Assembly: GCA_008330645.1 (NCBI GenBank)
Contig: VLTN01000026.1
Coordinates: 62,001-126,000, forward strand
DNA: 64,000 nucleotides
Direction: 5' to 3'
From: Cafeteria roenbergensis
Lineage: Eukaryota; Sar; Bigyra; Bicosoecida; Cafeteriaceae
The notes under the pieces are model-generated. The model was not told the origin of the DNA. It searched no databases and saw nothing but the letters and a program-made list of their open reading frames with translations. The translations under genes were made by a program, and so were the position numbers. Below, piece by piece: positions 16,618-50,909 of the stretch (positions within the stretch are counted from its first letter, which is position 1; each line of letters begins with the position of its first letter).

Positions 16618-18084
16618 TCACACCTTCGCAGCATGCTCCGCCGTGTCCACAACTTTTTTCAGCACGCCGGCCGGTGGGAGCGCAGACCGGTGGCGAGGTG
16701 CGTGCGCTGCGGCTGGAGAGGCGGGCGCTGAGCGCCCCGCTTGCACGCTTCCAGGGGATGCGGGGAAGGGCGATGACGCTTCGGCAGCGGCAAAGCTGAT
16801 GCGTGAGCCACCCAGGCTTGCCGAGTACCGTGGCTCGCCTCTAGCTTGGCGGCCCGCTGTGCTCTCGAAGCTGGCAACCGAATCTGACCCAAGGGACTGC
16901 CGGCCGGCGATCGTGCGGTCTGTCCACACCGCGCGCTGAGAGCCCGGCCCCTCTGCAGCGCCGAGATGCCGCGGCTGCCACGGAGTGGACGGCCCAGCAG
17001 ACGATTCTGCCGCGTGGCAAGGCGCTTGGTCTTCAGGGAACAGTCGCCGCAGTTGTCGGCCAGCGCAGGCGACCGCGCCGTGCGATGCCAGCTGAGCGGC
17101 CGTTGGACGGCTTGTCGGGTCAAGTCGCAGACAGGTTGCCGCGACGTCTGCCAAATCGCCCGGCCATGCCCCCCGAGCCTCCACGCCAGAGGCGCGGCCT
17201 TGTGCTCGAGGTGACATCCCAAGCACGCTCGCCGTCGTCCCCAATGAGGAGGGTTGGCTCCTGTGGTCCGCTTCCCACCTCTCCCGAGCGGCCTGCAGCG
17301 CCAGAGCGGCCCCGTTCTTGGTTCTCCTCAGGGCAGTGTAGGCCGAGCCACTGCGTGGCAGGGGCTCACCAGAGAGCATTTCCAGCATGATCAGACCAAG
17401 CGCGAAAATGTCGGCAGGCCGACGGTCCTGCCCGGGGACCGGGTTGAGGGTCTCCGGAGCGATGTAGTCGGAGTCTCCGTCTCGCGATCGGTCGTCATTC
17501 CATCTGGCGCACCGGCCGAGGTCTGCAAGCTTGAACACTGGGGCGGCAGAGCCAGACTTGCCGGCTCCCGCCAATGCATCGGTGGACGGCAGTCCCGTCA
17601 AGCCGGCGACGAACGGCAGGAAGTGCCCTGCGCGGTCGCAGAGCGGCCTTGAATAGCCGACGAGGATGTTGCGCGGCTTCACATCCAGGTGGGCCAAGCC
17701 GCGGGCGTGCAAGTGTTCCAGCCCTCTGGCGAGGTGGAGGGCCACGCACCGAATGTCGATGGCGTGAGGGGTTGCGCGCCGCATCCTCGTTCCGTCCGAG
17801 TGCATGTCGTCACGGCCCATCACTTCGCTCTGAGAGAGCTGCGCCAGCTTCAGAGACTGGAAGGACACCTGCGACAAGGAGGGGCCCGCGTCGCAACCAT
17901 CGCTGCCACCGGAAGCGCGAGGCGCGAGGGCGAACGACGAGGTGGCCGCTGCTCCAAGACCGCCACGCTCAGCGCCAGGCCTCTGGCTGCGCCTCCACGC
18001 TTCGTCCGCTTCATCCGCTTGCGCCTCCGACATGGCGGCTCCCATGCCCATGCCGTGGGAGAGGTCGCCATTGTCCGAGAACGC

Positions 18085-18122
<38 letters not shown>

Positions 18123-19686
18123 CGCTTGCGTCGCTGTCCGCATTTGCAGTGGCTGAGGGAGTGGCCTGCCGCCCGCGCCCGGAAGCGCCTCCTCCGAAGT
18201 AACTCCGGATGTCCGCCTTGGCAGCCGCTTGAGGCCTACCCCGCTGCAGCGACCTCGAAGGTGCCGACACCTCCCCATCGTCATCATCGCTCGACTCGGC
18301 GTCGTTGCAAGATGGGCCAGCCGAGCCATTGGACCGCACTGGACCCGTTGCCGCCGAGGGGGAACAGCCTGGGCTGAAGGCAAGCGCCCTCGCAACCGGG
18401 CCACCGGAGGGAGTGCCCGGCGATCGAGGCACAGCCCGAGCAGCCCGGCCCGAGGACCGGTCGGCGACTGGCGAGCTTGCAGGAGGACCACGCCGCGGGC
18501 TGGTTGTCCTGCGCTGCGGGTGCAGCGGACTATCATCCAGATCGCCATCGTCATCGCCCTCGGGCCCGCGAGCACGGACCCGGCCAGACTGCCCCGACGC
18601 TTCGGCGGGGCGACCCTCACCTTGCGCGCTGTCGCCACGGCCTGCCAGAGGACCATCCTCCGACACGGCGCCGAACCGAAGGGCGGCCACGCCGCTCTCG
18701 CCGGGGCCGAATCCGCTCCCGCTGTCAGTGAACGCGCTCTCCTGCGACGCGAACGAGAGCTGGCGCCCAAGTCCCCCAACGGGAGCAGCCAAGCGCGCTC
18801 CCGCCCGCGCCACTCCGATATCATCATCGCCGTAGTCGTCTTCGTCGTCCCCGTAGCTCTGGGACGCCGTCCCACCGACGGGAGGGGAGCCGAAAGCCAG
18901 AGTCGACCCAGCCGCCCCGAGCCCTCTCGCTGCTCCGGCGATTTCCCTGCCCGCCCCCACCCGCGAGACGGAGCGATGCTTAGACTTGAGGACGGAGGGC
19001 GGGGCAGACGGCACCACGGCGCGGGCCGCCACTGCATAGGCACGCCCGGCCGCTTGTCTTGAGCACCGGCTTTGCTTCCCGCTTCCCTCTGCGGCATCGT
19101 CATCGCCCGCAGACCTTGCGTCGGAATCGCATCCCTCATCGCCCAAGCCAGACCCCGTCGGCTGTCTGCGCCCGACCAGCGCGTCTAAAAGCGTGCCCCA
19201 AGCAAGCTCCAGCTGGATGCACAACTGCCCATGCCCCCCCCCCGGCGGAGCAGCTTCCCTCCAGCTGGAGTGGTAACCCACCAGGTGCTCGTGCCGCCCC
19301 ACTGCCGCCATCGCGTGCACTTCGGCCAGCAAGTCTGCCGCCGCCTCCGCGTCCCCCTGCCTCTGCTGCACAGCCCGCTTCACAGCGTAGGTCACCCCGT
19401 CCACGCGCGACCGAGCGCGCACCACCTCACAGAACGCGCCCCTGCCAGCGAAGCCGATCTCCTCAAACTGCATCGCGAAGATGGACACCCTGCCGTCCGG
19501 TCCCACGCTGCTGCCAGAGCGCCCCGCGACGTCACGCCGCAGCCTCCTGCGCCGCCGGTCCGCAAACCTGGCAGCAGAAGCAGCGTCGGGCACCTCCAGC
19601 AGAGGGTTCTGGGACATGGGAAGCTTGGCGCGCCTCACTGCCGGCGAATCGTCTGCGACGTGCCGAGAGGCAACCTGGTCGCGGGC

Positions 19687-19728
<42 letters not shown>

Positions 19729-20541
19729 CCCGGCCCCGGCGCCACCTGCGGTCTTGTCCATCGCGGTCGCGCTCCTCCCTGGGCGCGCCCGGCAGCTCGG
19801 CTCCTGCCCAGATGCGGCAGCATCGCCCAGAGGTCCGCCAGAAGCAAGCGGCAGACAGGGCGACCGCCCAGCACCGCCCCTGGCCGCTGCAGCAGAGGCA
19901 CCTGGCGGGCTTGAGACAAACGCCAGCCTTGCACTCAGCGGGCGACCATCGCAGTCGGGGCGGGCTGGCGTGGGAGGCGAGGCCACCAGCGGCTTGCTGG
20001 GCGCCGCCCACGCCGGCCTGGAGGCTCCACAGGTGGACCCAGGGGACGAGTCTGCCCCGCAAGCACCCACTGCCTCCGTGGCCCATGCCGGAGGCCCAGC
20101 TGGCTTGCCTCGGGAGTCGTTCTGCCTCGGTTGACCTGCCCAGCTCCGCATGCCGGCACGGCCGCCGGCCTGCTGGCTGTCCGGGGACGCTCCATCGCCG
20201 GACGACGAAGGGGGACCGGGCACTCCAAGTGTCATTCTGGCCCGCTTCGACGCAGAGGCGGGGACGGGCGGCGCTGTGGGCGTGGAGTCGGGGCCTCGCG
20301 AGCGCTCGCGCGCTGCTGCAAGGGCCCGGCGCAGCGACGGCCTCCCAGCGAGGCCACCGCCAGAGGGCGGCGACGCGTCGGAAGAAGCCCTCCTGGCTCT
20401 GGCCGGCGACAGCCGAAGCCGGGACATGCCCAGCGAGCCAACGGACGCCTGAGAAGCGCCGACGCGGCGAGGCGACACCTGCCTCATGGGCAGCGCGCCT
20501 GGCCCATCATCGCTAACGATGCTATCGTCCAGGTCGGACAT
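16618..20541 (-). CDS. WEE1: Wee1-like protein kinase with a large insert in the catalytic domain
   Basis: 1307 residues from the ATG at 20541 (MSDLDDSIVSDDG). The frame is open up to an ATG at 21111, but those 190 extra residues are rich in Cys and Trp and look non-coding. Residues 1-350 are Ser/Pro/Arg-rich and disordered. The kinase begins FEEIGFAGRGAFCEV (359), with the ATP lysine in YAVKR (K388). The catalytic loop is HLDVKPRNIL (D953). The metal-binding motif is DLG (1007-1009) rather than DFG, as in Wee1, followed by GDSDYIAPE and ADIFALGLIMLEMLSGEPLPRSG, which matches the Wee1 signature GDSRFLAxE, ADIFAL and GEPLPRNG. Wee1 kinases inhibit CDK1 by phosphorylating its ATP loop and delay mitosis. 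Between the N-lobe (about 455) and the C-lobe (about 925) lies a roughly 465-residue acidic, Ser-rich insert. Gene ends 212 bases before the adhesin start. Confidence 0.85.
18085..18125 (+). repeat. Hexanucleotide microsatellite GTCGCT
   Basis: Six to seven copies of GTCGCT stand in the kinase insert. On the coding (minus) strand they encode an alternating Ser-Asp run within the acidic part of the insert. Confidence 0.85.
19688..19726 (+). repeat. (CTG)13 trinucleotide repeat
   Basis: Thirteen perfect CTG triplets on the plus strand. In the minus-strand kinase gene they are read as AGC and give a run of serines in the N-terminal disordered region, followed by ARDQ. Perfect repeats of this length are likely to vary in length between strains. 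Confidence 0.95.
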
Positions 20542-21168
20542 GCCGATCGGCCGCTCCGGAACGTCATCATCACAGGTCCTGCGAACGCCCAGCGCACACT
20601 CGGGGCAACGAGCCAAACTCAGGCACATGCACCGACGAGTCCGACCCGCGTCTGCGCCCCCAGGCCATTCTGGTGGGTCGGGGCACCAGCAAGCGAGGGG
20701 CGCGTCGGCTGTTCTCATGATTCCAGGGCGAATTCTCGCTCGATGCACCCCCTGGCCGGACTGGTGGAGCGGCACTCGGGCGGAAGATTCAAATTGATTG
20801 CATCGCGCCTCTCGCAGCCGCTGCTGCTCGCGGTCATGGGAGCTCACCGTCGCTTCCGGCGTGTCATTGCCGTGAGAGTCGTCTGGGTGGCCATGGCTCC
20901 GGCCGCAAGTGCCGATCTGCGGCGCCAGGCCTCGCAGGGTGGTGAGGGGCGGTTCTGTGGCACAGAAAGCCTGGCAGAGCCGCACACCGGGAGCGCAACA
21001 CAACCCCGGCGGGCCGACGCCGGCGCGCCACGCGCCGCAGCGGCACCTCGTCCGCCCTGCAGGCTGCCAGATCCAAGGCTGCCACGCCGCAGGTTTTTGC
21101 TTCGGGCGCATCGGGGAGGGGGCGTGGCACGTCGACCGACAGCACGTACCAACTGCAAAAAGAAGAAG
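20542..21168. other. 5' flank of the Wee1-like gene
   Basis: About 630 bases between the chosen kinase start and the tRNA terminator. The kinase frame is open through most of it, but the translated composition (many Cys and Trp, no known domain) argues against coding. It probably holds promoter and 5' untranslated sequence. I see no other gene. Confidence 0.5.
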
Positions 21169-21175
21169 AAAAAAA
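21169..21175 (-). terminator. RNA polymerase III T-run terminator
   Basis: Seven A on the plus strand, thus seven T in the direction of tRNA transcription, three bases beyond the tRNA 3' end. A second T-rich stretch follows. This is the standard Pol III stop signal. Confidence 0.85.
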
Positions 21176-21178
21176 GGC

Positions 21179-21250
21179 AGGCCATACCCGGGTTCGAACC
21201 GGGGTCTTCGCAGTCAAAGTGCGACGTCATTACCACTAAACTATAAGGCC
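21179..21250 (-). tRNA. trnQ-UUG: tRNA-Gln, anticodon UUG
   Basis: 72 nucleotides on the minus strand. The acceptor arm is GGCCTTA pairing with TATGGCC with one T-T mismatch. The anticodon stem TCGCA/TGCGA encloses the loop CTTTGAC, giving anticodon TTG at 21217-21215, which reads CAA (Gln). The T arm is CCCGG, TTCGAAC, CCGGG, and the B box GGTTCGAACC is intact. The discriminator is T (U73), usual for eukaryotic tRNA-Gln. No CCA is encoded and no intron is seen. It lies between the PH/coiled-coil gene and the kinase gene, in the same orientation. Confidence 0.95.
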
Positions 21251-21518
21251 TCAGTGTCCGGGATGGAGTGAATTGCATCTGGAAATTAATACGCAACGCT
21301 CCCAGTTTTAATGACTGAGTGGTTCTGCCTGCGTTCGCTTGCGGCGTCGTGTGGAGGTCGGAATGTCGCAGCTGAGAGCAGGGAGGTGGCTTGAAAGCAC
21401 TGCAGCGAATGAAAATACGTGGTTGCCTGGGAATGCCAACAGATCACAATAGGCTCCAAGCCCAACGTGCATCAGGGCGGCGGGGCCCAGCAGCCTGATG
21501 GCTGGCGGCACCAACAAG

Positions 21519-23556
21519 TCACCAGTCGCTGTCGTCATCGTCTGCGTCGCCAGTCTGAGCAGCGCCTCCAGCAGCAGCGCCCTCCTCGTCGCTGCTCCAG
21601 TCGTCTTCCGGAGCAGGTGGGGCAGCGGCGACTGCAGCCTGCGCGCCCGGCCCCGAGGAGGCAGCGGCAGCGGCCGCTTGGGGTGCGTCGTCGCCCCAGC
21701 CGTCCTCGTCCTCGACAGTGGCCGCGCCGCTGCCGGCGGGCTCGGCCTCGTCCTCCGACGAGCTGCTGTCAGCGTCAACGAGGCCCTTGCCCATGATGAA
21801 CCGGCGCTTGGCCTGAAGGGCCTGCTTGATAAGCTCGGTGCGCTGGGCGTCCCGCTTGGCCGTCTCCACGCGCTCCTCGAAGAAGCTCAGCAGCGTGCGG
21901 ACGTCGCCGAACACATCCACGTCGAGCTTGTGGCCGCCGCGGCGAAGCGCGTCGTCCAGCTTGCGCACCGACGCCTCGGCCACGCGCAGGCGCATTTCCA
22001 GCTTGCGCTTAGCCTTGGTCTCCTCCTTGAGGGCACGGCTCTGCTGTGACACTTCCTCGAGCTGCTTGGCCAGGTCCTCGTGAGAGGCAGCCATCGACAC
22101 GACCTGCTCCTTGAGGCCCGCCGCCTCGGCTAGCATGCGCACGCGCTCGGCCTCGAGCTCCCTTGTTTTGGCTTCGGCAGCCGCGACCGCCTCTGCGCCG
22201 CCATCGCCGGCAGAGACGCGAGCAGCCTCCAGGTCCGCTTCCAGCTTGGCGAGCTGGCGGGCCTGCTCGTCGGCTTCGGCCTCGCGCTCCGTCCGGAGGC
22301 GCTCCAGCTCCGCCTCGGCCGCTTTCCGCTTCTGCTCCTCCTCCGCTGCGCGCTTGGCAGCCTCGGCAGCAGCAGCAGCGCCAGCCTTTGCCTTTGCCGC
22401 AGAAGCGCCTCCCGCCTCCGCCTCGGCTGCCTCCGCGAGCTTCTTCTCAAAAGCCTCCTTCTCGGCCCGGAGCCGCAGTGCCTCTGCCTTGAGGCGCTGC
22501 ATCTCCTCTTCCTTGCCTTGCGCCGCGGCTGTGCCCTCGGCCTTGAGGCGGTCGATCATGGAGTCGCCGAGCAGCGCGTTCTCCATGGTCACGCGCGAGC
22601 AGTTCTGAAGAGTGTCTCGCCACGCGGCCTGCTCCTCAGCGCTTGCAGCCGCGAGAACGAGCGCCCGCCCAGCGTAAAAGTCAGGGTGCTGCAGGCGAAT
22701 CCCAAACGTCGTCTTCGCCGGGCCGCGCTCGACGAGCTCCACGGTGCAGCCCCCGAGAGGAACCACTCCTTTAGGCTTGGTGTCAAAGTGCGCCATTGTG
22801 GGCGACTGGGAGGGCGCGTAGTACAACAAGAAGCCGTCCTTCGCCACAAACAGCCGCTTCTGCCACCTCTCCGACGTGGGTCTGCGAGCCACAGAGGGGA
22901 GGGCAGGGGGACAGGACGCAACGATGTCATACCACACGAGTGGCGGGGGCCGTCTTGGACCGCAGCGGCCATCTTTTCCGGCAATTGAGGACACCGCTGC
23001 CGGCGACCCGCTGCAACCGGAGTGCGCGACTCCCGACAACAGCCGTCACGCTCGCGGACAGCGCCCTCGGTCGCCATGGCTGGCAACAGTTGGAGCACAG
23101 CGAATCGCTGCCACCATGCGGCTCGCGACCACGCACGCTGGGCGGCGCGAACGGCCGTGTGACTTGCGCAGAACACGTCGCACGAAGGCCGCCGGTGCGG
23201 CTGCTGCCGCATGCGCAGTGACGCCCCTCGCCGACGGTGCTGCCCGGGACTGGTGCGAGCCCGCCCTCCTGCCCGCCCCCCCTCAAGCGAGCGCGACCAC
23301 GCCCCGTCCCCCACCACCCGATGGAGCCCCGGTTGGGACGATCGCAACGGGAACCCGCGAAATGCAGCGACCTCAAGCCTTCGCGAGACCGCTGGTCCGC
23401 AAAGAGTCCGCAACTCGCTTCGTCTCCGGCCGAGCCAAGCTGCCACGACGCCCTCAGCAACGTGGCGCTGGCGCCTTGGGCCAAGGCTCACTTGCTCATC
23501 GGCAGCTTGTGCAGGTACCCTGCTCGCTGGTAGTTGGCCTTGATCTCGCCGCTCAT
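21519..23556 (-). CDS. PH domain and coiled-coil protein (two exons)
   Basis: Exons 23556-23492 and 22881-21519 join to give 475 residues. Exon 1 encodes MSGEIKANYQRAGYLHKLPM plus S and the first two bases of a Lys codon; exon 2 continues as PTSERWQKRLFVAKDGFLLYY. Splicing rebuilds an unbroken PH domain (residues about 11-120): GYLHK strand, RWQKRLFV, KGVVPLGGCTVE and the invariant Trp in EEQAAWRDTLQ. Residues about 125-390 are a charged coiled coil rich in Ala, Glu and Lys. The last 60 are acidic, with DDWSSDEE and a terminal DDDDSDW. PH domains bind phosphoinositides or proteins at membranes. The PH plus coiled-coil order recalls SWAP-70-like proteins but I would not name it so. It starts 297 bases from the divergent p25-alpha-like gene, suggesting a shared promoter region. 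Confidence 0.85.
22882..23491 (-). other. Intron of the PH/coiled-coil gene (610 bp)
   Basis: Donor GTGAGCC follows ATGAGCAA; acceptor GGCTCGCAG precedes ACCCACG. Joining in this phase yields MSKPTSERWQKR, continuous PH domain sequence. The unspliced frame upstream of 22881 has no PH beginning. Confidence 0.85.
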
Positions 23557-23853: not shown

Positions 23854-26800
23854 ATGGCCAGCTCGTCCGCGAGCACGGCGTCCACCGCGCCGACCGGTGG
23901 GGCCGCGACCGCGAGCCCGGCTACTGGCGCCCAGGGCCTGGGCGCCAGGCTCCAGGATGCGCTCCAGGCCAAGTTCGGCCGATTCACATCGATGTCCCAC
24001 CCTTCCGAGGGAGCAGGAGTGCTCAGTGAGCCAGTGACTCGCGCACCGGCGCCCGCAGCCGCTGCTCGCGCCAGCTTGATCGCGCTCAGGACTCGCCCAC
24101 GCCCGCACCGCCGGTGCTTGCCCGGACCCTCCACGCTTGCTTGCCCCCAGCCTGCTGCATCGCGCATACTGCGCTGCCCGTTGCTGCTGGCCACCGCGTT
24201 CCCGCCGGCCTGGGCGCTGCCGGTCAACGTGCGACCTCCGGCCCCGCTCTGCCTGCTCGGTTGCCGCAGGTCGCTCGGGCTTCCAGTTCCTTCTCAAGTC
24301 CTGCAGAGGTGTCGTCTTTCCCGAGGAGGTCGTCGACCTCGCATGGAGCGCGTGGTCCCAAGGGGCCGCGGATGGGAGGCAGCTGCTGACCTTTGCAGGA
24401 TTCGTCTCGTCCATCTCTCAGCTAGCAAGCGCTGCCCACCCTCGCGAGAGTGAGATATAGCCGTTGAAGCGCTTGTGCGCGCCAGGCTTTCCTATTCCCA
24501 AGCTCTTCACGCCGCAGGTACGCGTTGGGGGAGGGTGGGGGGGAGCTGGGGGCCGGCGCGCGCGCTGCCGCGCGGAAGCAACTGCTGGTTGATTCGTGAT
24601 TGGGTGAATCTCCCGTGCCGCACCCCGCCGCAGCGAGCAAGGCGGCCCTCTGCATGTTTTTGACGCAAAACCTCCTCGGGGCTGCATTGGCGGACGCTGC
24701 CGATGCCGCGCAGCCAGCGGGCGCGCAGGCGCAACCTGTATCCGCAGCGCGAGCGGCGTCAGCGCGCGCCGCGGTCCTGCACGATGCGCTTGCGGCCATC
24801 CAGTCCGCCCACCCAGTCGAACGATCAAGCCTCATGGCTGAGCCAGCGCCGGAGGACCTGCCCCACGGCGATGGCCCGGAACCCGCTTCGGGAGCTTGCG
24901 ACGCAGCCGACCTGGCGGCGCCCCCGGCAGAGCTGGACGACTGCGACGCGCCGGAACCCACTCGTGAAGTCAGCAGGGCGGGCGCATCGACATCAGGGTC
25001 TGGTGGGGTCAGCGAAGCGCCCTCCGCAGGCGCGGCCGCGCGTGCAGACGCCATCAGCACCAGTTTTGGCAACAGCAACAGCCCTGTGACCGCGTCTGGG
25101 ACCAGCTTTCTCCTGTCATCGGAGGGGAAGCGCGCAGCGCCTGCCAGCGCGCTCAAGGGGGGCCAGCTTGCCGGAGCGGCGTCGCAAAGCCAGCCGCCCG
25201 CCGCAGCCAAGGCCCCTGACCGGCGTGTCTCGTTCGGTGACAGCGGTGGCACAGGGCCCAACCTTCGGCTGAAGGCACCGGCTGCCCTCGATCACGAGGC
25301 CCCTGCCGCAGGGTCAGACTCCAGCAATGCCTCGACGGAGCCCGGGGAGCCGGCCGGCAGAGAGCCGACCGGCGGCGGCGAAATCGTGTCAGTACCGGAT
25401 TTGCTGGCTGCCTTGAGTATGAGCCGCTTTGCCGACGCGCTGGCAGAGGCAGGCATATCCACCATGGACGAGGTGGCCACGGCGGCGCAGGACCCTCCTC
25501 GGCTCCTCGCTGCGGGACTGCCTGCGGCCGCGGCGCGCCGGTTGGCCGCTGCCGGTCGCCGCATCGAGGCCGGCGTCCTCAGAAGACCGGGCGGCGCTGA
25601 CGGGCCGGGCTCTCCAACGGAGATTTCAATGGGTCTGAGGTCCCCAACCCCTCCCACAACATCCCTCCCTCCAGCTCCGTCGCGGTACCGCGCAGGGGAC
25701 GCATCGCCTCCGCGGCCTGGCCAGATGCGGTCCGGCGCCCCCCACAGCTCCGCGCCGAGTGCCGAGGTGAGCGAGCCGCCCGCCCAGGCGTTGCAGGCCA
25801 TGCCACAGGGCACGTCGGCAGCTGCCTCTGCTGCAGGCGCGGAGACCACCGAGCGCTCGCAGCCAAACAGCGAGCGGGCGCCCGCCCCTCGTCCATCGAC
25901 CGGCGTGGCGAGCCAGCTTCGCTCGCAAGCCCCACAGCCTAGGCTCGAAGGCAGCACACGCGAAGCAGGTGCCGGGCAGTTGTCCGCAAGCGGAGTGGCG
26001 AGTTGCCTCCCTGGGCCGGCTGCGGATGGAACAACACCGCAGGCCGCGGGCACCTCTCCCGCTGGCCTTGCAGCACCGACGTCAGCGCTGCAATCGATGC
26101 AGCCGCCCGACGTGCCAGCTGTGGCAACCGCTGCAGTGGAGGTGCCGGTGGCCGCGACAGCACGCGCCCCCGACCCCGCAGCAGCCGCGGCCGCCGTCTC
26201 TGCGCCTGGGCTGTCGTCAATGCCCCCAGCCTCGGCAGCTGCTGTTGCGCAGGCGCCAGCCGCCGCCCTGGGCGCAACGGCGTCCGGCGGTGTTCGGCTG
26301 GCAGCGGCACCAGACGACTCACTGCCAGCAGACGCGCCAGTTTCAGCGGTGCTGGGCGAGCCGACAGTCACGGCCGCCCCTCCCTTGTGGGAAGAGTTCG
26401 CTAGCCAGGACGGGTACGTGTATTTCCACAGGAGGGACACCGGCGCAACGCAGTGGGAGCGACCCGCGGGCGCGTCGATTCTCACCCTGGAGCAGAAAGC
26501 CAGGTCCCATGCTGCTCGCCGGCCGGTGTCCAAGCCAGCCTCTGGGACCGGGACTGCGTCCGGTGCCGACAGCCTGCCCGGAGCAGACGGCGTCGCTGCT
26601 CCCGGAAGCGTCGGTGACGTTGGTGAGGGAGCGCGAGCCTTTTACAACACCCAGCCTGGGGGGCAAGACAGCCGGGCTTCGGCTCCGCACCTGCTGCAGC
26701 TCGAGTCGCCGGCGGCCGACTGGCGGAGAACTCGGCTCCGTGCTCGGCACAACGCTGGCAGCACGCTCCTGCAATCAGAGTTCAAGTCTGATCGGCAGCG

Positions 26801-28508
26801 ATGGAGAGACGCTTGGAAGGACGTCATCGCCCCGTCCCCCGCGGACTCTCTGTCCGCCCCCGGGTCCCCCGCCCCCGGAAGTTCTCCCGGCTCCCCCCCG
26901 GCTGGGAGTGGCACTGTCTCTCACTCCCTCTCTGGGGCTGATACCACGGCCGCCCCCAGCCCGTCCTCCTCCGCCCCACAGTCCCCTGCTGTTGCGCCGC
27001 TGCCAGCGCCGCCGCTAAGGTTCCTGCAGTCGCAGTCAGCGCACCTCCGTGGCGACGACGCGCCAGCAGCCTTCAGCGGCCACGGCGCGGCTTCCCCTGC
27101 ATCACAGAGCGGAGCCGGCGAGCCAGTGGCCGATGTCGTCTCGAGGGCGCTGGCCCTGGCTGCCAAGGCGCGAGCTGCAGCCAGCTCGGTGCCTTCGGCA
27201 AGGGGCGGCCGCGCCCGTGCTTCTGACGAGGCGCACGGGCCGCCGGCAGCGCATTCCCCTTTGAGGGGCAGAGAGCCCATGCCGGGCCCCGCTCTCTCCA
27301 GCTGGTCAAGGTCTCCCTCTCCCCAAAGGAGCTCTCGCGTGCCGGCAGGCTCGGTCACTGGCTCAACCGCGGGCCCGGTTAGCAGTGCAGCGGGTGTCGC
27401 TCCAGCCAGCCAGGCCGAGGCCCCCAAGCCTGCGGACTCGTGGCGCCTCAGCGGCGCTACAATCACCCCTGGCTGGAAGTCGGGCGCTGCAGCTGGGTCC
27501 CCAGCGCGTCAGGCTGGGCTTGGGGGTGCGTCGCCCCACGGTCGGGTGACAGTAAGCACCGCGGGGGGCTCGCCCGCGCACGGGTCGCCAACGTCGCCCA
27601 ACCACTTGCCAGCGCGCTTCCGGAAGCAAGGGCCTGCTCCCGCTCCTGCCCCCGTGAGAGGGACCCCCGAGGTCAGGCGGGACGGATCCGTTGACGGCAG
27701 CCAGCGAGCGCAGCCAGCTCAGCGCCCGTCTCTGGCATCGTTCGAGTCCCCGACCTCTCGCGCATTCACCACACAGCCAGCCAGGACTGCGCCGAGCCAG
27801 CCACCGGCGACTGCCACAGCCGCAGCTCCTGACCCAGCCGCGGCCCGGGAGGCCCCCGGCCTGGAGGTGAGCGCTCTGCCGTCGCATGACGACCTCAGTG
27901 GCCGAGCCGATCCCGAGCTGCAGGCGGCGGCGCGAGCTCCGCGCCTCAGGCGCGCAGGGTCCTCTCTCCGGGTCAAGAGCTACGCAGACAGGCAGCCTGA
28001 TGGGTGGGCCGCACCCAGGCCGAGCGCAGCTGCCGAGAGCCCGGTAGCGAGCGCCGAGATGGTGGGCATGCGACGAGGCGAGGCCGCATTCGCCACCAGC
28101 CTCAGAGGCGGGGACATGCCGGGTGGCTCACGGCTCCCTGCCAAGCCAGATGGGAGCACGCCGGGCCTGGGCCGTTCTGCAAGCTTCACTGCAATGCGGC
28201 TAGGCATGGACTGCGCCGCGCCCGCCGAGTCGGCGACCGGGTCGTATGCGTACGGTCACAAAGCAGCAGCTGCTCGAGCGGCTGGCGCCGGCTCAGTGTT
28301 TGATCGGCTGACGGACACCCGAGGCTACACTGGCACGCACAAGCACCGGTTCGACAGCGGCGGCCGAGGCCGCGGCCTCCGGGGTCGAGACAGCAGCGAC
28401 GTGGACTACGAGTGGGTGAAGCAGCACAGCCTCGGAGCGCCTGGCGCGCCGGTGTTCACCACGAACGACGCGGGCAGCCTTGCGTTTGGCGTGCGTAGAT
28501 TGCAGTGA
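23854..28508 (+). CDS. Giant p25-alpha/TPPP-like protein with SAM-like and WW domains (three exons)
   Basis: Exons 23854-24025, 24270-24449 and 24634-28508 give 1408 residues; all junctions are phase 1. Residues about 35-135 match the EF-hand-like core of p25-alpha (TPPP): KFGRF, then LSRSGFQFLLKSCRGV against the TPPP segment MNGKNWAKLCKDCKV, then VVDLAWSAW, LLTFAGFVSSISQLA against INYEEFKKALEELA, then ETSKAAL and FLTQNLL. The C-terminus carries the other p25-alpha hallmark, SVFDRLTDTRGYTGTHKHRF followed by GRGRGLRGRD (about 1340-1375). Between them are a SAM-like helical segment (about 370-435), a WW domain (about 701-732: PLWEEF, GYVYFHRRDTGATQWERP) and long disordered Pro/Ser/Ala stretches. 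TPPP proteins bind and stabilise microtubules and are tied to cilia; WW domains bind proline-rich partners. Function here is inferred. Confidence 0.8.
24026..24269 (+). other. Intron 1 of the p25-alpha-like gene (244 bp)
   Basis: Donor A|GTGAGCC at 24026 and acceptor TTGCCGCAG at 24269. Phase 1 on both sides; the joined codon AGT (Ser) sits in GVLSRSGFQFLLKS. Confidence 0.8.
24450..24633 (+). other. Intron 2 of the p25-alpha-like gene (184 bp)
   Basis: Donor A|GTGAGAT at 24450 and acceptor CCGCCGCAG at 24633. Phase 1; the joined codon ACG (Thr) sits in HPRETSKAAL, which continues the p25-alpha core alignment. Confidence 0.75.
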
Positions 28509-28827: not shown

Positions 28828-31800
28828 ATGTCGACAGCCGGCAAGCCGAGCCCCAGCAGTGAGTCTGCCAAGTTTGCACGCCTTGCCTTGGCTTTGTGGG
28901 CGGCTGGTGAGCGGCCCAGCCTTGTCCACCACGCGGCATCCCGACTGCGCCCAACGCCTGTGGCTCGCTGTGCGCAGCTAAGCCAAAGCCCGCAGCGCCA
29001 ATGGCCGGGAAGCCGAAGCCGACACCACCAGCCGTCAACACGCGCAGCGCAGCTTCCCCCCAACCCGGAAAGGCAGCGCCGTCTGCTGGCTCGCCGAAAC
29101 CCGCAACAGCCGCGAAAGCTCCGCCTCCCAAACCCGGCGCGCCTCCAAAGGCTGTCAAACCTGGAGCTCCAGTGAAGCCAGGGGTGCCAAAAGCAGGCCC
29201 GCCGCCCAAGGCTGCGAAACCTGCGTCTCCAGCCAAACCAGGAGCACCGGCCAAGCCGGGCAGCCCGGCGGCAGGTCCTCCGCCGAAGGAGGGCAAGCCC
29301 GGAGCACCGGCCAAGCCGGGCAGCCCGGCGGCAGGTCCTCCGCCGAAGGGCGGCAAGCCCGGAGCACCGGCCAAGCCGGGCAGCCCGGCGGCAGGTCCTC
29401 CGCCGAAGGGCGGCAAGCCCGGAGCACCGGCCAAGCCGGCCAGCCCGGCGGCAGGTCCTCCGCCGAAGGGCGACAAGCCCGGAGCACCGGCCAAGCCTGG
29501 CAGCCCGGCGGCAGGTCCTCCGCCGAAGGGCGGCAAGCCCGGAGCACCGGCCAAGCCGGGCAGCCCGGCGGCAGGTCCTCCGCCGAAGGGCGGCAAGCCC
29601 GGAGCACCGGCCAAGCCTGGCAGCCCGGCGGCAGGTCCTCCGCCGAAGGGCGGCAAGCCCGGAGCACCGGCCAAGCCGGGCAGCCCGGCGGCAGGTCCTC
29701 CGCCGAAGGGCGGCAAGCCCGGAGCACCGGCCAAGCCGGGCAGCCCAGCGGCAGGTCCTCCGCCGAAGGGCGGCAAGCCCGGAGCACCGGCCAAGCCGGG
29801 CAGCCCGGCGGCAGGTCCTCCGCCGAAGGAGGGCAAGCCCGGAGCACCGGCCAAGCCGGGCAGTCCGGCGGCAGGTCCTCCGCCGAAGGGCGACAAGCCC
29901 GGAGCACCGGCCAAGCTGGGCAGCCCGGCGGCAGGTCCTCCGCCGAAGGAGGGCAAGCCCGGAGCACCGGCCAAGCCGGGCAGTCCGGCGGCAGGTCCTC
30001 CGCCGAAGGGCGGCAAGCCCGGAGCACCGGCCAAGCCGGGCAGCCCGGCGGCAGGTCCTCCGCCGAAGGAGGGCAAGCCCGGAGCACCGGCCAAGCCGGG
30101 CAGTCCGGCGGCAGGTCCTCCGCCGAAGGGCGACAAGCCCGGAGCACCGGCCAAGCCGGGCAGCCCGGCGGCAGGTCCTCCGCCGAAGGGCGGCAAGCCC
30201 GGAGCACCGGCCAAGCCTGGCAGCCCGGCGGCAGGTCCTCCGCCGAAGGAGGGCAAGCCCGGAGCACCGGCCAAGCCGGGCAGCCCGGCGGCAGGTTCTC
30301 CGCCGAAGGGTGGCAAGCCCGGAGCACCGGCCAAGCCGGGCAGCCCGGCGGCAGGTCCTCCGCCGAAGGGCGGCAAGCCCGGAGCACCGGCCAAGCCGGG
30401 CAGCCCGGCGGCAGGTCCTCCGCCGAAGGGCGGCAAGCCCGGAGCACCGGCCAAGCCGGGCAGCCCGGCGGCAGGTCCTCCGCCGAAGGGCGGCAAGCCC
30501 GGAGCACCGGCCAAGCCTGGCAGCCCGGCAGCAGGTCCTCCGCCGAAGGGCGGCAAGCCCGGAGCACCGGCCAAGCCGGGCAGCCCGGCGGCAGGTCCTC
30601 CGCCGAAGGGCGACAAGCCCGGAGCACCGGCCAAGCCGGGCAGCCCGGCGGCAGGTCCTCCGCCGAAGGGCGGCAAGCCCGGAGCACCGGCCAAGCCTGG
30701 CAGCCCGGCAGCAGGTTCTCCGCCGAAGGGCGGCAAGCCCGGAGCACCGGCCAAGCCGGGCAGCCCGGCGGCAGGTCCTCCGCCGAAGGGCGACAAGCCC
30801 GGAGCACCGGCCAAGCATGGCAGCCCGGCGGCAGGTCCTCCGCCGAAGGGCGACAAGCCCGGAGCACCGGCCAAGCCTGGCAGCCCGGCGGCAGGTCCTC
30901 CGCCGAAGGGCGACAAGCCCGGAGCACCGGCCAAGCCTGGCAGCCCGGCGGCAGGTCCTCCGCCGAAGGGCGGCAAGCCCGGAGCACCGGCCAAGCCGGG
31001 CAGCCCGGCGGCAGGTTCTCCGCCGAAGGGCGGCAAGCCCGAGCACCGGCCAAGCCTGGCAGCCCGGCGGCAGGTCCTCCGCCGAAGGGCGGCAAGCCCG
31101 GAGCACCGGCCAAGCCTGGCAGCCCGGCGGCAGGTCCTCCGCCGAAGGGCGGCAAGCCCGGAGCACCGGCCAAGCCGGGCAGCCCGGCGGCAGGTCCTCC
31201 GCCGAAGGGCGGCAAGCCCGGAGCACCGGCCAAGCCGGGCAGCCCGGCGGCAGGTCCTCCGCCGAAGGGCGGCAAGCCCGGAGCACCGGCCAAGCCGGGC
31301 AGCCCGGCGGCAGGTCCTCCGCCGAAGGGCGGCAAGCCCGGAGCACCGGCCAAGCCGGGCAGCCCGGCGGCAGGTCCTCCGCCGAAGGAGGGCAAGCCCG
31401 GAGCACCGGCCAAGCCGGGCAGCCCGGCGGCAGGTCCTCCGCCGAAGGGCGGCAAGCCCGGAGCACCGGCCAAGCCGGGCAGCCCGGCGGCAGGTCCTCC
31501 GCCGAAGGAGGGCAAGCCCGGAGCACCGGCCAAGCCGGGCAGCCCGGCGGCAGGTCCTCCGCCGAAGGGCGGCAAGCCCGGAGCACCGGCCAAGCCGGGC
31601 AGCCCGGCGGCAGGTCCTCCGCCGAAGGGCGGCAAGCCCGGAGCACCGGCCAAGCCGGGCAGCCCGGCGGCAGGTCCTCCGCCGAAGGAGGGCAAGCCCG
31701 GAGCACCGGCCAAGCCGGGCAGTCCGGCGGCAGGGCCTCCGCCGAAGGAGGGCAAGCCCGGAGCACCGGCCAAGCCGGGCAGTCCGGCGGCAGGGCCTCC

Positions 31801-34800
31801 GCCGAAGGAGGGCAAGCCCGGAGCACCGGCCAAGCCGGGCAGCCCGGCGGCAGGTCCTCCGCCGAAGGGCGGCAAGCCCGGAGCACCGGCCAAGCCGGGC
31901 AGCCCGGCGGCAGGTCCTCCGCCGAAGGAGGGCAAGCCCGGAGCACCGGCCAAGCCGGGCAGCCCGGCGGCAGGTCCTCCGCCGAAGGGCGGCAAGCCCG
32001 GAGCACCGGCCAAGCCGGGCAGCCCGGCGGCAGGTCCTCCGCCGAAGGGCGGCAAGCCCGGAGCACCGGCCAAGCCGGCCAGCCCGGCGGCAGGTCCTCC
32101 GCCGAAGGGCGACAAGCCCGGAGCACCGGCCAAGCCTGGCAGCCCGGCGGCAGGTCCTCCGCCGAAGGGCGGCAAGCCCGGAGCACCGGCCAAGCCGGGC
32201 AGCCCGGCGGCAGGTCCTCCGCCGAAGGGCGGCAAGCCCGGAGCACCGGCCAAGCCTGGCAGCCCGGCGGCAGGTCCTCCGCCGAAGGGCGGCAAGCCCG
32301 GAGCACCGGCCAAGCCGGGCAGCCCGGCGGCAGGTCCTCCGCCGAAGGGCGGCAAGCCCGGAGCACCGGCCAAGCCGGGCAGCCCAGCGGCAGGTCCTCC
32401 GCCGAAGGGCGGCAAGCCCGGAGCACCGGCCAAGCCGGGCAGCCCGGCGGCAGGTCCTCCGCCGAAGGAGGGCAAGCCCGGAGCACCGGCCAAGCCGGGC
32501 AGTCCGGCGGCAGGTCCTCCGCCGAAGGGCGACAAGCCCGGAGCACCGGCCAAGCTGGGCAGCCCGGCGGCAGGTCCTCCGCCGAAGGAGGGCAAGCCCG
32601 GAGCACCGGCCAAGCCTGGCAGCCCGGCGGCAGGTCCTCCGCCGAAGGAGGGCAAGCCCGGAGCACCGGCCAAGCCGGGCAGTCCGGCGGCAGGTCCTCC
32701 GCCGAAGGAGGGCAAGCCCGGAGCACCGGCCAAGCCGGGCAGTCCGGCGGCAGGTCCTCCGCCGAAGGGCGACAAGCCCGGAGCACCGGCCAAGCCGGGC
32801 AGCCCGGCGGCAGGTCCTCCGCCGAAGGGCGGCAAGCCCGGAGCACCGGCCAAGCCTGGCAGCCCGGCGGCAGGTCCTCCGCCGAAGGAGGGCAAGCCCG
32901 GAGCACCGGCCAAGCCGGGCAGCCCGGCGGCAGGTTCTCCGCCGAAGGGTGGCAAGCCCGGAGCACCGGCCAAGCCGGGCAGCCCGGCGGCAGGTCCTCC
33001 GCCGAAGGGCGGCAAGCCCGGAGCACCGGCCAAGCCGGGCAGCCCGGCGGCAGGTCCTCCGCCGAAGGGCGGCAAGCCCGGAGCACCGGCCAAGCCGGGC
33101 AGCCCGGCGGCAGGTCCTCCGCCGAAGGGCGGCAAGCCCGGAGCACCGGCCAAGCCTGGCAGCCCGGCAGCAGGTCCTCCGCCGAAGGGCGGCAAGCCCG
33201 GAGCACCGGCCAAGCCGGGCAGCCCGGCGGCAGGTCCTCCGCCGAAGGGCGACAAGCCCGGAGCACCGGCCAAGCCGGGCAGCCCGGCGGCAGGTCCTCC
33301 GCCGAAGGGCGGCAAGCCCGGAGCACCGGCCAAGCCTGGCAGCCCGGCAGCAGGTTCTCCGCCGAAGGGCGGCAAGCCCGGAGCACCGGCCAAGCCGGGC
33401 AGCCCGGCGGCAGGTCCTCCGCCGAAGGGCGGCAAGCCCGGAGCACCGGCCAAGCCTGGCAGCCCGGCGGCAGGTCCTCCGCCGAAGGGCGACAAGCCCG
33501 GAGCACCGGCCAAGCCTGGCAGCCCGGCGGCAGGTCCTCCGCCGAAGGGCGACAAGCCCGGAGCACCGGCCAAGCCTGGCAGCCCGGCGGCAGGTCCTCC
33601 GCCGAAGGGCGGCAAGCCCGGAGCACCGGCCAAGCCGGGCAGCCCGGCGGCAGGTTCTCCGCCGAAGGGCGGCAAGCCCGGAGCACCGGCCAAGCCTGGC
33701 AGCCCGGCGGCAGGTCCTCCGCCGAAGGGCGGCAAGCCCGGAGCACCGGCCAAGCCTGGCAGCCCGGCGGCAGGTCCTCCGCCGAAGGGCGGCAAGCCCG
33801 GAGCACCGGCCAAGCCGGGCAGCCCGGCGGCAGGTCCTCCGCCGAAGGGCGGCAAGCCCGGAGCACCGGCCAAGCCGGGCAGCCCGGCGGCAGGTCCTCC
33901 GCCGAAGGGCGGCAAGCCCGGAGCACCGGCCAAGCCGGGCAGCCCGGCGGCAGGTCCTCCGCCGAAGGGCGGCAAGCCCGGAGCACCGGCCAAGCCGGGC
34001 AGCCCGGCGGCAGGTCCTCCGCCGAAGGAGGGCAAGCCCGGAGCACCGGCCAAGCCGGGCAGTCCGGCGGCAGGTCCTCCGCCGAAGGGCGGCAAGCCCG
34101 GAGCACCGGCCAAGCCGGGCAGCCCGGCGGCAGGTCCTCCGCCGAAGGGCGGCAAGCCCGGAGCACCGGCCAAGCCGGGCAGCCCGGCGGCAGGTCCTCC
34201 GCCGAAGGGCGACAAGCCCGGAGCACCGGCCAAGCCGGGCAGCCCGGCGGCAGGTCCTCCGCCGAAGGGCGGCAAGCCCGGAGCACCGGCCAAGCCGGGC
34301 AGCCCGGCGGCAGGTCCTCCGCCGAAGGAGGGCAAGCCCGGAGCACCGGCCAAGCCGGGCAGTCCGGCGGCAGGGCCTCCGCCGAAGGAGGGCAAGCCCG
34401 GAGCACCGGCCAAGCCGGGCAGTCCGGCGGCAGGGCCTCCGCCGAAGGAGGGCAAGCCCGGAGCACCGGCCAAGCCGGGCAGCCCGGCGGCAGGTCCTCC
34501 GCCGAAGGGCGGCAAGCCCGGAGCACCGGCCAAGCCGGGCAGCCCGGCGGCAGGTCCTCCGCCGAAGGAGGGCAAGCCCGGAGCACCGGCCAAGCCGGGC
34601 AGCCCGGCGGCAGGTCCTCCGCCGAAGGGCGGCAAGCCCGGAGCACCGGCCAAGCCGGGCAGCCCGGCGGCAGGTCCTCCGCCGAAGGGCGGCAAGCCCG
34701 GAGCACCGGCCAAGCCGGCCAGCCCGGCGGCAGGTCCTCCGCCGAAGGGCGACAAGCCCGGAGCACCGGCCAAGCCTGGCAGCCCGGCGGCAGGTCCTCC

Positions 34801-37800
34801 GCCGAAGGGCGGCAAGCCCGGAGCACCGGCCAAGCCGGGCAGCCCGGCGGCAGGTCCTCCGCCGAAGGGCGGCAAGCCCGGAGCACCGGCCAAGCCGGGC
34901 AGCCCAGCGGCAGGTCCTCCGCCGAAGGGCGGCAAGCCCGGAGCACCGGCCAAGCCGGGCAGCCCGGCGGCAGGTCCTCCGCCGAAGGAGGGCAAGCCCG
35001 GAGCACCGGCCAAGCCGGGCAGTCCGGCGGCAGGTCCTCCGCCGAAGGGCGACAAGCCCGGAGCACCGGCCAAGCTGGGCAGCCCGGCGGCAGGTCCTCC
35101 GCCGAAGGAGGGCAAGCCCGGAGCACCGGCCAAGCCGGGCAGTCCGGCGGCAGGTCCTCCGCCGAAGGGCGGCAAGCCCGGAGCACCGGCCAAGCCGGGC
35201 AGCCCGGCGGCAGGTCCTCCGCCGAAGGAGGGCAAGCCCGGAGCACCGGCCAAGCCGGGCAGTCCGGCGGCAGGTCCTCCGCCGAAGGGCGACAAGCCCG
35301 GAGCACCGGCCAAGCCGGGCAGCCCGGCGGCAGGTCCTCCGCCGAAGGGCGGCAAGCCCGGAGCACCGGCCAAGCCTGGCAGCCCGGCGGCAGGTCCTCC
35401 GCCGAAGGAGGGCAAGCCCGGAGCACCGGCCAAGCCGGGCAGCCCGGCGGCAGGTTCTCCGCCGAAGGGTGGCAAGCCCGGAGCACCGGCCAAGCCGGGC
35501 AGCCCGGCGGCAGGTCCTCCGCCGAAGGGCGGCAAGCCCGGAGCACCGGCCAAGCCGGGCAGCCCGGCGGCAGGTCCTCCGCCGAAGGGCGGCAAGCCCG
35601 GAGCACCGGCCAAGCCGGGCAGCCCGGCGGCAGGTCCTCCGCCGAAGGGCGACAAGCCCGGAGCACCGGCCAAGCCTGGCAGCCCGGCGGCAGGTCCTCC
35701 GCCGAAGGGCGACAAGCCCGGAGCACCGGCCAAGCCGGGCAGCCCAGCGGCAGGTCCTCCGCCGAAGGGCGGCAAGCCCGGAGCACCGGCCAAGCCTGGC
35801 AGCCCGGCGGCAGGTTCTCCGCCGAAGGGCGACAAGCCATCCGCCGGCGCCGCGCCTCCGAAGGGCGACAAGCCTTCAGCCGGCGCCGCGCCTCCGAAGG
35901 GCGAGAAGCCGTCACCGGCTGGGAAGGGCGGCGCGCCTCCTCCGAAGGGCGACAAGCCATCCGCCGGCGCCGCGCCTCCGAAGGGCGACAAGCCTTCAGC
36001 CGGCGCCGCGCCTCCGAAGGGCGACAAGCCATCCGCCGGCGCCGCGCCTCCGAAGGGCGAGAAGCCGTCACCGGCTGGGAAGGGCGGCGCGCCTCCTCCG
36101 AAGGGCGACAAGCCATCCGCCGGCGCCGCGCCTCCGAAGGGCGACAAGCCATCCGCCGGCGCCGCGCCTCCGAAGGGCGACAAGCCATCCGCCGGCGCCG
36201 CGCCTCCGAAGGGCGAGAAGCCGTCACCGGCTGGGAAGGGCGGCGCGCCTCCTCCGAAGGGCGAGAAGCCTTCAGCCGGCGCCGCGCCTCCGAAGGGCGA
36301 CAAGCCATCCGCCGGCGCCGCGCCTCCGAAGGGCGAGAAGCCGTCGCCTGCTGGGAAGGGCGGCGCGCCTCCTCCGAAGGGCGACAAGCCATCCGCCGGC
36401 GCCGCGCCTCCGAAGGGCGACAAGCCATCCGCCGGCGCCGCGCCTCCGAAGGGCGAGAAGCCGTCACCGGCTGGGAAGGGCGGCGCGCCTCCTCCGAAGG
36501 GCGACAAGCCATCCGCCGGCGCCGCGCCTCCGAAGGGCGACAAGCCATCCGCCGGCGCCGCGCCTCCGAAGGGCGACAAGCCATCCGCCGGCGCCGCGCC
36601 TCCGAAGGGCGACAAGCCATCCGCCGGCGCCGCGCCTCCGAAGGGCGAGAAGCCGTCACCGGCCGGGAAGGGCGGCGCGCCTCCTCCGAAGGGCGACAAG
36701 CCATCCGCCGGCGCCGCGCCTCCGAAGGGCGACAAGCCATCCGCCGGCGCCGCGCCTCCGAAGGGCGACAAGCCATCCGCCGGCGCCGCGCCTCCGAAGG
36801 GCGACAAGCCATCCGCCGGCGCCGCGCCTCCGAAGGGCGACAAGCCTTCAGCCGGCGCCGCGCCTCCCAAGGGCGACAAGCCATCCGCCGGCGCCGCGCC
36901 TCCGAAGGGCGAGAAGCCGTCACCGGCTGGGAAGGGCGGCGCGCCTCCTCCGAAGGGCGACAAGCCATCCGCCGGCGCCGCGCCTCCGAAGGGCGACAAG
37001 CCATCCGCCGGCGCCGCGCCTCCGAAGGGCGACAAGCCATCCGCCGGCGCCGCGCCTCCGAAGGGCGACAAGCCATCCGCCGGCGCCGCGCCTCCGAAGG
37101 GCGAGAAGCCGTCACCGGCTGGGAAGGGCGGCGCGCCTCCTCCGAAGGGCGAGAAGCCTTCAGCCGGCGCCGCGCCTCCGAAGGGCGACAAGCCATCCGC
37201 CGGCGCCGCGCCTCCGAAGGGCGACAAGCCATCCGCCGGCGCCGCGCCTCCGAAGGGCGACAAGCCATCCGCCGGCGCCGCGCCTCCGAAGGGCGACAAG
37301 CCATCCGCCGGCGCCGCGCCTCCGAAGGGCGACAAGCCATCCGCCGGCGCCGCGCCTCCGAAGGGCGACAAGCCATCCGCCGGCGCCGCGCCTCCGAAGG
37401 GCGAGAAGCCGTCACCGGCTGGGAAGGGCGGCGCGCCTCCTCCGAAGGGCGAGAAGCCATCCGCCGGCGCCGCGCCTCCGAAGGGCGAGAAGCCGTCACC
37501 GGCTGGGAAGGGCGGCGCGCCTCCTCCGAAGGGCGAGAAGCCATCCGCCGGCGCCGCGCCTCCGAAGGGCGACAAGCCGTCACCGGCTGGGAAGGGCGGC
37601 GCGCCTCCTCCGAAGGGCGACAAGCCTTCAGCCGGCGCCGCGCCTCCGAAGGGCGACAAGCCATCCGCCGGCGCCGCGCCTCCGAAGGGCGACAAGCCAT
37701 CCGCCGGCGCCGCGCCTCCGAAGGGCGACAAGCCTTCAGCCGGCGCCGCGCCTCCGAAGGGCGACAAGCCATCCGCCGGCGCCGCGCCTCCGAAGGGCGA

Positions 37801-45500: not shown

Positions 45501-46466
45501 AGCTGCCGCAGGCGCACGCCCCCGACAAGCCTGAAGTAGCCAAGTGCGTATTGCTGCTGGATGGGGGAGAGGGGCCGCCCCGAGTAGGACTCGGTTGGGT
45601 ACAGCTGGCCCAGCATGGGACCCTGCAGCCACTCGAAAATTTCACCTTGCGTCATGACCTCGTAGAAGTTCTTCTTGAAGCTGGCCTGCGGGCACACGGT
45701 TGGGGCACACGCCGCGGGGCAGGCGGGCGGGCGGGTGGGTGGGGCAGCAGGTCGACCTCGCCCTAGGTGGCGGCGGGGCGGAGGCACCAACTTGCCCTAG
45801 AATTGCTTGCTTGGCGCGGGCTGCTCACGCCAGGAAATTCTTCGTCAAGGAGGAGGTCCTCGAGCGCGGCGTTGGTCTTGTAGGCAACTGCGCGGGGACA
45901 GGGTCGGGAGGGAGCGGGGACGACGCGGCGGGGGGGATGTCGAGCGAGCAAGGCGCAGAGAGCGATCACTCGCGTGCCGGCAAACTGCTCAGCGGGCGGG
46001 CGCCGACGACCGGTCCTGCTGCCGGGCGCAAGCTGGAGGTCAATCGCATGCTGGCCGCGTGCCGGGGGCAATCGTGGGGAGCGGGGGGCAGCGTGGGCCG
46101 CTTGCTTGACGCACCTCCGACATCGTATAGCTGAAACGCGATGATGCCAAAGATGGCGAACAGGCCGAAGAACACGGCCACCTCGCCCAGGCGCTTCTGC
46201 CGCTCGATCTCGTACATGGACGACAGCATCTGTCGCACGGGCAGGCCGGCGGCTCCGGAGTCGGTCACGCCGGGCTTGGAAACCGGCACGACTCTCGCTC
46301 CCGGCCGAGAGGTCGTTTTGTGGGCCTGCCGCTCCACCTCGTGCTTGAGCAGCTGGCCCAGCACGAAGACATTGGACCGCGCCGCCGCATGCTTGTCAAC
46401 CAGCCCCACCGACTGCGTCGCGCTGTCGACTTGCGCAGGCGCCGTCGGGTTGCCCAGGTCCTGCAT
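42536..46466 (-). CDS. Polycystin-2-like cation channel with C-terminal PH-like domain (two exons)
   Basis: Exons about 46466-46122 and 45685-42536 give about 1164 residues. Exon 1 ends with TM1 (GEVAVFFGLFAIFGIIAFQLY, about 94-114). Residues about 116-345 form the large extracellular polycystin (TOP) loop with several Cys. TM2-TM6 follow (about 355-575), with NLVAFGISFGLVIVGFALWG (TM5), the pore helix FRTFWSSASTLARFTLGAWD, and TM6 ending LLNMIIGIIETSFSEV, close to PKD2 LLNMFLAIINDTYSEV. PKD2 channels pass Ca2+ and other cations, often in ciliary membranes. The filter reads LGA where PKD2 has LGD. After TM6: an EF-hand-like stretch (about 653-685), a Cys-rich patch (about 797-830: GLCCCLC, CRGCSCFSGCG), a PH-like module (about 895-1005) and a basic Ser-rich tail. 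Convergent with the repeat gene. Confidence 0.85.
45686..46121 (-). other. Intron of the polycystin-like gene (about 436 bp)
   Basis: The acceptor GTGCCCGCAG before GCCAGCTTC is clear and phase 0. A phase-0 donor GAT|GTCGGA lies at 46121; the stronger-looking donor GGAG|GTGCGT seven bases on does not fit the phase. The exact donor is therefore uncertain, but a first exon is needed to supply TM1. Confidence 0.6.
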
Positions 46467-50501: not shown

Positions 50502-50909
50502 TTGTGCGAGCGCGCTGGCCGAGAGTTGCTCGCTAAATTTCGAGGGCTTGGGCCTGTCGAGTCGTCGTCCGGGCGGCTCCTTCAGTCGGCATGCGTTGCC
50601 CTCGCTTGACCACGCACCCCGCACTCGCGCGCCGCCGCCGCCGCCGCCGCCGCCTGCCTTGGCCTCGGTCCGCGCTCGTTCCCGAGACCCCTCTTCCCCT
50701 GCCAGCTGTGGTCGGGCTCGGGCGCGGCGCGAAGGGGACTCCGCCTCCGTTCACGCCCGCCAACGCACCTGCAGCGGCGGGAAAACCCCCGCTCGTCTTC
50801 GCGGCCGCGTGCAGGCGTGTGACAGGCCGCATACAGGGGCGCTGGTAGGCTCTTTGGCCGCCGCCACCGTCCTGCCGGCAACTCGCCAGGCGTTGCAGCC
50901 CTTGCCGCG
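50502..50909 (+). other. Intergenic with (GCC)8, upstream of the channel gene
   Basis: 408 bases between two plus-strand genes. It holds eight GCC triplets at 50631-50654 and GC-rich sequence likely to form the promoter and 5' untranslated region of the channel gene. No gene recognised. Confidence 0.5.

Follow-up and report, generated by a model that had tools for sequence, protein, structure and literature searches.

The p25-alpha family, to which the TPPPs belong, is represented in Pfam by PF05517, an entry that "is not a structural domain" (Orosz 2012, PMC3498115). According to the same source, the conserved C-terminal 31–32 residues of p25alpha are also found on their own, chiefly in unicellular eukaryotes, and the solved TPPPs have an unstructured C-terminal part and a more ordered middle part. 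The p25-alpha proteins of stramenopiles are described as large (900–1,500 residues) and as containing B-box and IQ, with a WW domain in addition in Ectocarpus CBJ49059. Some of them have a tail-like fragment before a short core (Phytophthora) or after it (Ectocarpus), and in Aureococcus the p25-alpha tail is coupled to WD40 (PMC3498115). For part of the multidomain TPPP-like group, the function is given as unknown (Orosz, PMC10304595). Tetrahymena TLP2, a protein of 1,694 amino acids with two TPPP-like domains, wraps half a ciliary-tip microtubule and is likely to form a bridge across the central pair there, and the TPPP-like domains of TLP1 and TLP2 favor high-curvature protofilament pairs (PMC11642885, preprint). 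In Xenopus cells, the partial p25-alpha of TgDCX, together with part of its linker, binds microtubules, and the unbound fractions are prominent (PMC7048138). In Chlamydomonas, flagellar reassembly following division is impaired in fap265 mutants (PMC5607191). Here, we describe a candidate member of this family in Cafeteria roenbergensis, encoded at positions 23854–28508 of a 64,000-nucleotide window (assembly GCA_008330645.1, contig VLTN01000026.1, positions 62,001–126,000 of the forward strand). The window is the whole stretch of DNA that was analyzed, and all coordinates below refer to it.

With moderate confidence, we interpret the locus as one three-exon gene, the product of which is a TPPP-like protein of 1,408 residues. 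It would consist of a diverged p25-alpha core at the N-terminus, a p25-alpha tail at the C-terminus, and a linker of about 1,200 residues in which a probable SAM domain and a WW domain are embedded. The features are as follows.

23854–24025, plus strand: exon 1, residues 1–57 plus base 1 of codon 58; holds the p25-alpha opening motif LQAKFGRF (residues 37–44)
24026–24269, plus strand: intron 1, 244 bp, GT–AG, phase 1
24270–24449, plus strand: exon 2, central part of the probable p25-alpha core
24450–24633, plus strand: intron 2, 184 bp, GT–AG, phase 1
24634–28508, plus strand: exon 3, with the end of the core, the low-complexity linker, the SAM-like segment, the WW domain, the p25-alpha tail, and the stop codon
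25377–25592, plus strand: SAM-like segment, residues 366–437; weak Pfam SAM matches, a five-helix model, and weak Foldseek SAM matches
26379–26465, plus strand: WW domain, residues 700–728; PF00397
28275–28397, plus strand: p25-alpha tail, residues 1332–1372, with RLTDTRGYTGTHKHRFD and GRGRGLRGR; PF05517 and PDB matches

The p25-alpha tail and the gene model

Judged from its sequence matches, the tail is securely assigned to p25-alpha, and its match to the PF05517 profile is not due to chance. It covers PF05517 positions 101–141 of 153, with an E value of 1.5e-7 when the full protein was scanned and of 6.9e-9 for the excised segment, and the corresponding scores (32.2 bits at full length and 36.5 bits cut out) are above the curated cut-off of 22.6. 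Against the PDB, the tail matched TPPP3 (2.4e-9), Toxoplasma DCX/apicortin (3.2e-9), and TPPP (6.3e-6). GRGRGLRGR at residue 1361 is an exact GXGXGXXGR motif and the single one in the protein. By itself, this motif proves nothing because the pattern was found 10 times when all six frames of the window were scanned; RLTDT and TG.HK.RF were found there a single time each. The C-terminal p25-alpha hallmark noted in the preliminary description of the locus is thus borne out by the profile score, the PDB matches, and the exact motif. A Pfam scan of the 1,408-residue product, proposed there as a check, found p25-alpha at the C-terminal end.

The three exons join in frame to the 1,408-residue product, with GT–AG sites at both introns and phase 1 agreeing at both junctions; the donor of intron 1 is GTGAGC. 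An alternative donor at 24518 (CAG/GTACGC) was dropped because the frame of exon 2 hits a stop codon earlier. A codon model was built from 3,071 codons of other open reading frames in the window. In exon 1, in exon 2, and over the initial 743 bases of exon 3, it ranked the gene-model frame top of six, with small margins (0.14, 0.05, and 0.11 bits per codon, respectively), and introns 1 and 2 were negative in all six frames. The splice sites, the phase match, and the codon scores agree with the coordinates, the three-exon model, and the product length that had been given for this locus. The genomes of C. roenbergensis have a GC content of 70–71% and 1.67–1.89 introns per gene (PMC6972860); the GC content of the window, 64–79% per 2 kb, fits these values, and its introns, tRNA, and gene content suit a eukaryotic source.

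A different partition of the locus is improbable in our assessment, namely that exons 1 and 2 form a short or truncated TPPP-like gene by themselves, or give an alternative product, with exon 3 as an independent gene. Exon 3 does lie inside its own 1,302-codon open frame, and unspliced exon 2 runs into an in-frame stop codon at 24458–24460, at the start of intron 2, which would yield a short product of about 121 residues in total. Both observations suit two genes, whereas the GT–AG sites, the phase kept across both junctions, and codon scores that favor the exons over the introns argue for one. On the upstream side, the likely ATG of a minus-strand PH-domain gene is at 23556, at a distance of 297 bases from the ATG at 23854. 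Because this divergent start codon is so placed, exon 1 stands at a natural 5' end and needs no other gene. The spacing of the two start codons fits a divergent promoter, and the first donor of the PH-domain gene is GTGAGC, as in intron 1.

The candidate N-terminal core

The preliminary description had aligned the N-terminus of the spliced product with the p25-alpha core. We regard this assignment as quite probable; no direct Pfam or TPPP match was obtained, but the opening motif, a join test, and a profile alignment point to it indirectly. The opening motif of the p25-alpha family is L(V)xxxF(Y)xxF (PMC10304595). In the Cafeteria protein, LQAKFGRF at residue 37 is the sole occurrence of LxxxFxxF; PMC9698843 gives a longer form, LxxxF(Y)xxFxxF, from which the protein departs at the last F. 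In the join test, the core placed directly before the tail scored 41.2 bits and aligned with PF05517 positions 3–141, compared with 37.3 bits for the tail alone. The 14 control joins scored 34.6–40.1 bits (eight shuffled cores, 34.6–35.7; five hard-decoy window segments, 35.1–40.1; one arbitrary sequence, 35.3), and the earliest profile start in any of them was position 52 or later. The core and tail were therefore the best of 15 joins and the sole one aligned from profile position 3. When the core was compared by hhalign with a profile of three TPPPs, the alignment was collinear over 76 columns; the score was matched by 8 of 500 shuffles, each over 22 columns or fewer. A single-sequence AlphaFold2 model of exon 2 contains three helices (pLDDT 82), which presumably occupy the place of the second to fourth helices of the TPPP core.

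Several results weigh against a core at this end. The N-terminal pieces alone gave no Pfam family, PF05517 included, and a phmmer search of the PDB with the N-terminus returned four non-TPPP chains with E values of at least 0.64 and no TPPP. Foldseek with the 59-residue exon-2 model gave six matches at E values up to 10, none of them a TPPP. The best decoy in the join test was only 1.1 bits below the core and tail, and the hhalign probability was only 1.07% (E 0.05). The pairwise score test of the core is weak: the local score was equaled by 27 of 2,000 shuffles for TPPP3 and 35 of 2,000 for TPPP1, and by 14 and 49, respectively, of 1,741 window segments, and the end-to-end score was equaled by 54 (TPPP3) and 360 (TPPP1) of 2,000 shuffles. 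Furthermore, no relative of the protein was found with the tail alignment in viral contigs (34 pattern-matched stretches, 0 confirmed) or in bacterial and archaeal contigs (8 pattern matches, 0 confirmed), sequences that inform little on eukaryotes. Taken over the core tests, which are not independent of each other, shuffles equaled most results in 1–3% of cases and one end-to-end test in 18%.

The absence of a Pfam or TPPP match for the N-terminus alone, the low hhalign probability, the Foldseek result, and the pairwise and end-to-end counts also fit an explanation in which p25-alpha is confined to the tail and the N-terminus is an unrelated small helical region. The protein would then be of the "partial p25-alpha" kind and large, with apicortin and the Aureococcus protein with partial p25-alpha and WD40 as counterparts; many protists have partial p25-alpha proteins (Orosz 2012, PMC3498115). 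We consider this explanation unlikely, if far from negligible. Against it stand the collinear hhalign alignment, the top rank of the core and tail among the joins, and their unique alignment from profile position 3. The opening motif is also in its place, although in 361 of 20,000 shuffled cores it likewise starts within the first 20 positions.

Two further observations were set aside. A PDB profile search with an alignment that included the window core found TPPPs; two of the three rows of that alignment are themselves TPPPs, and the result was not counted. In TPPPs of the fungal type, the first 30–40 residues are often followed by a phase-1 intron (PMC9698843), which the position of intron 1 resembles. 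This position was not used as evidence, since the border of exons 1 and 2 in human TPPP is phase 2 (PMC8180608).

Linker modules and known p25-alpha families

Between the end of the core (residue 137) and the start of the tail (residue 1332), there are 1,194 residues, in accord with the separation of about 1,200 residues first reported. The three long parts of this linker (residues 138–365, 438–695, and 736–1318) consist of 57–62% Ala, Pro, Ser, and Gly, and this composition suggests that the linker is probably disordered. The SAM-like segment that interrupts it matched SAM_2 (E=0.022; 15.3 bits against a cut-off of 20.5) and SAM_EPH (E=0.047), both below the Pfam cut-off. Folded alone as a single sequence, the segment forms five helices with a mean pLDDT of 71 (72–83 in the helical blocks), and a Foldseek search with this model gave 19 matches, among them the SAM domains 3k1r, 2kso, and 2y9t, none of which was significant. 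The earlier designation as SAM-like thus lacks a match above threshold, but the helical model and the SAM matches are compatible with it, and a SAM domain is probable.

On its profile match, the assignment of the WW domain is good. The segment reached 29.4 bits against PF00397 when cut out (cut-off 26.9) and 23.2 bits, below the cut-off, in the full-length scan, so that the WW domain of the preliminary description is upheld by the excised segment; the tryptophans are Trp703 and Trp725. A motif scan of the 1,408-residue protein found three stretches of the PP(x)K/R type but no PPxY, LPxY, or PPLP, and for this reason a ligand of the WW domain would more likely lie outside this protein. A proline-rich ligand is a possible candidate.

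The probable core and the securely assigned tail stand in the order known from the family, and this arrangement could be taken as one domain that was split and whose distant parts reunite in cis as a single binding unit. We consider this very improbable. Solved TPPPs have an unstructured tail, and other proteins contain the tail by itself (PMC3498115), which leaves no folded unit to restore. The "split domain" of the preliminary description over-reads the locus for this reason; since PF05517 is not a structural domain and its C-terminal residues occur independently, the two ends are best viewed as separate modules joined by a long linker, not as the halves of a cut domain.

Of the described proteins, Ectocarpus CBJ49059 and CBN75312 and Phytophthora infestans XP_002905233 share with the Cafeteria protein a large size, extra domains, and, on the Cafeteria side as a probable feature, a single core; as described, their core is incomplete (PMC3498115). 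CBJ49059, compared by description only, also has a WW domain. Unlike this stramenopile set, as far as it is described in that source, the Cafeteria protein has the full GXGXGXXGR tail and a SAM-like segment; Pfam reported no B-box or IQ, the features of the named proteins, at E values up to 1. The protein is therefore probably a variant within the known stramenopile-type multidomain group that differs by the full tail motif and the SAM-like segment. It had been presented as an architecture without described counterpart. Within the literature searched, this holds for the exact combination only; large stramenopile proteins, a WW domain, and a separate tail-like fragment were already described (PMC3498115). 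In a literature search outside which most subscription journals lay, no combination of p25-alpha, SAM, and WW was found among the matches listed, and there was no match for Cafeteria together with TPPP and tubulin polymerization.

The order of core and tail, the opening motif, and the Rossmann-like motif are shared with human TPPP1–3, the long type. In the latter, p25-alpha spans 160–170 residues (PMC8180608) and is the sole domain, unlike here, where a gap of 1,194 residues lies between the probable core and the tail. Owing to this distance between the probable core and the tail, and to the WW domain, a strict long-type TPPP was rejected. The short type, with a GGP triplet and no conserved tail, was rejected because the protein has no GGP and has a tail, and the fungal type, in which the tail region occurs twice, because the full-length scan gave one p25-alpha stretch and the protein has one GXGXGXXGR. 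As in apicortin/TgDCX, the second-best PDB match after TPPP3, the p25-alpha tail is a module of a multidomain protein. Unlike in apicortin/TgDCX, no doublecortin domain (DCX) was reported by Pfam at E values up to 1, and an assignment to apicortin was rejected. With Tetrahymena TLP2, which acts as a microtubule scaffold, the protein shares a very long TPPP-domain chain. TLP2 differs in that a long helix connects its two TPPP-like domains and in that it has an ARM domain, and the accessible portions of the preprint describe no SAM or WW domain (PMC11642885).

Neighboring genes and a proposed function

The PH-domain gene upstream extends over 21519–23556 on the minus strand, with its first donor at 23491 and a likely acceptor near 22882, which is one of four in-frame options. 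Judged by eye, the proposed first-intron join gives the PH domain its missing start. Downstream, a gene at 29001–38102 on the plus strand contains a 60-bp array of about 110 copies (29234–35838) that encodes the basic proline-rich unit PGAPAKPGSPAAGPPPKGGK, and a second array with a 36-bp unit at 35822–38102; all six frames are jointly open over about 6.7 kb. Among the 109 unit starts found, the sole spacing that is not a multiple of 60 comes from one 59-bp unit at about 31035, where the repeat peptide shifts frame (PGAPAKPG has 27 copies in one frame before this point and 75 in another after it). Either the frame change is a real frameshift, or it stems from an error in sequencing or assembly.

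Other features of the window are the following.

16621–21213, minus strand: protein kinase domain, PF00069 E=2.9e-28, in two stretches of a low-complexity 1,531-codon frame
21176–21251, minus strand: tRNA-Gln (TTG anticodon), found by ARAGORN and an Rfam tRNA match, overlapping the upstream edge of the kinase frame
42539–45796, minus strand: polycystin-type channel, Polycystin_dom E=4.7e-26
47104–48207, minus strand: mitochondrial carrier
48786–50498, plus strand: RCC1-repeat protein
50823–58094, plus strand: large ion channel, five Ion_trans stretches in a single 2,424-codon frame

Here, we propose a function for the TPPP-like protein by analogy with its relatives. The N-terminus would be a diverged EF-hand-like p25-alpha core and the C-terminus the conserved p25-alpha tail. 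The tail, and perhaps the core as well, may anchor the protein to flagellar or basal-apparatus microtubules, and the long, probably disordered linker would allow the SAM and WW domains to recruit partners or to self-associate. The protein is thus likely to be a flexible microtubule-associated scaffold, probably flagellar; we infer its microtubule binding, location, and partners from the described proteins. We favor the microtubule-associated scaffold suggested in the preliminary description, since in related proteins microtubules are bound by the tail region of p25-alpha (PMC7048138, PMC8180608). A more specific arrangement, which we regard as rather improbable, is a two-headed tether in which the folded core and the tail, which are adjacent in ordinary TPPPs, would have come to lie on the ends of a flexible arm of about 1,200 residues and grip two separate lattice sites or two microtubules, with SAM and WW loading partners. 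In such a tether, the product of the downstream repeat gene could be a candidate ligand of the WW domain.

If the core is confirmed, the flexible scaffold would be a natural case in which both p25-alpha pieces serve as independent long-range modules of one protein. The question of which piece binds tubulin, curvature, or partners could then be asked directly, and the multidomain TPPP-like group would be extended, probably into a free-living flagellate lineage.

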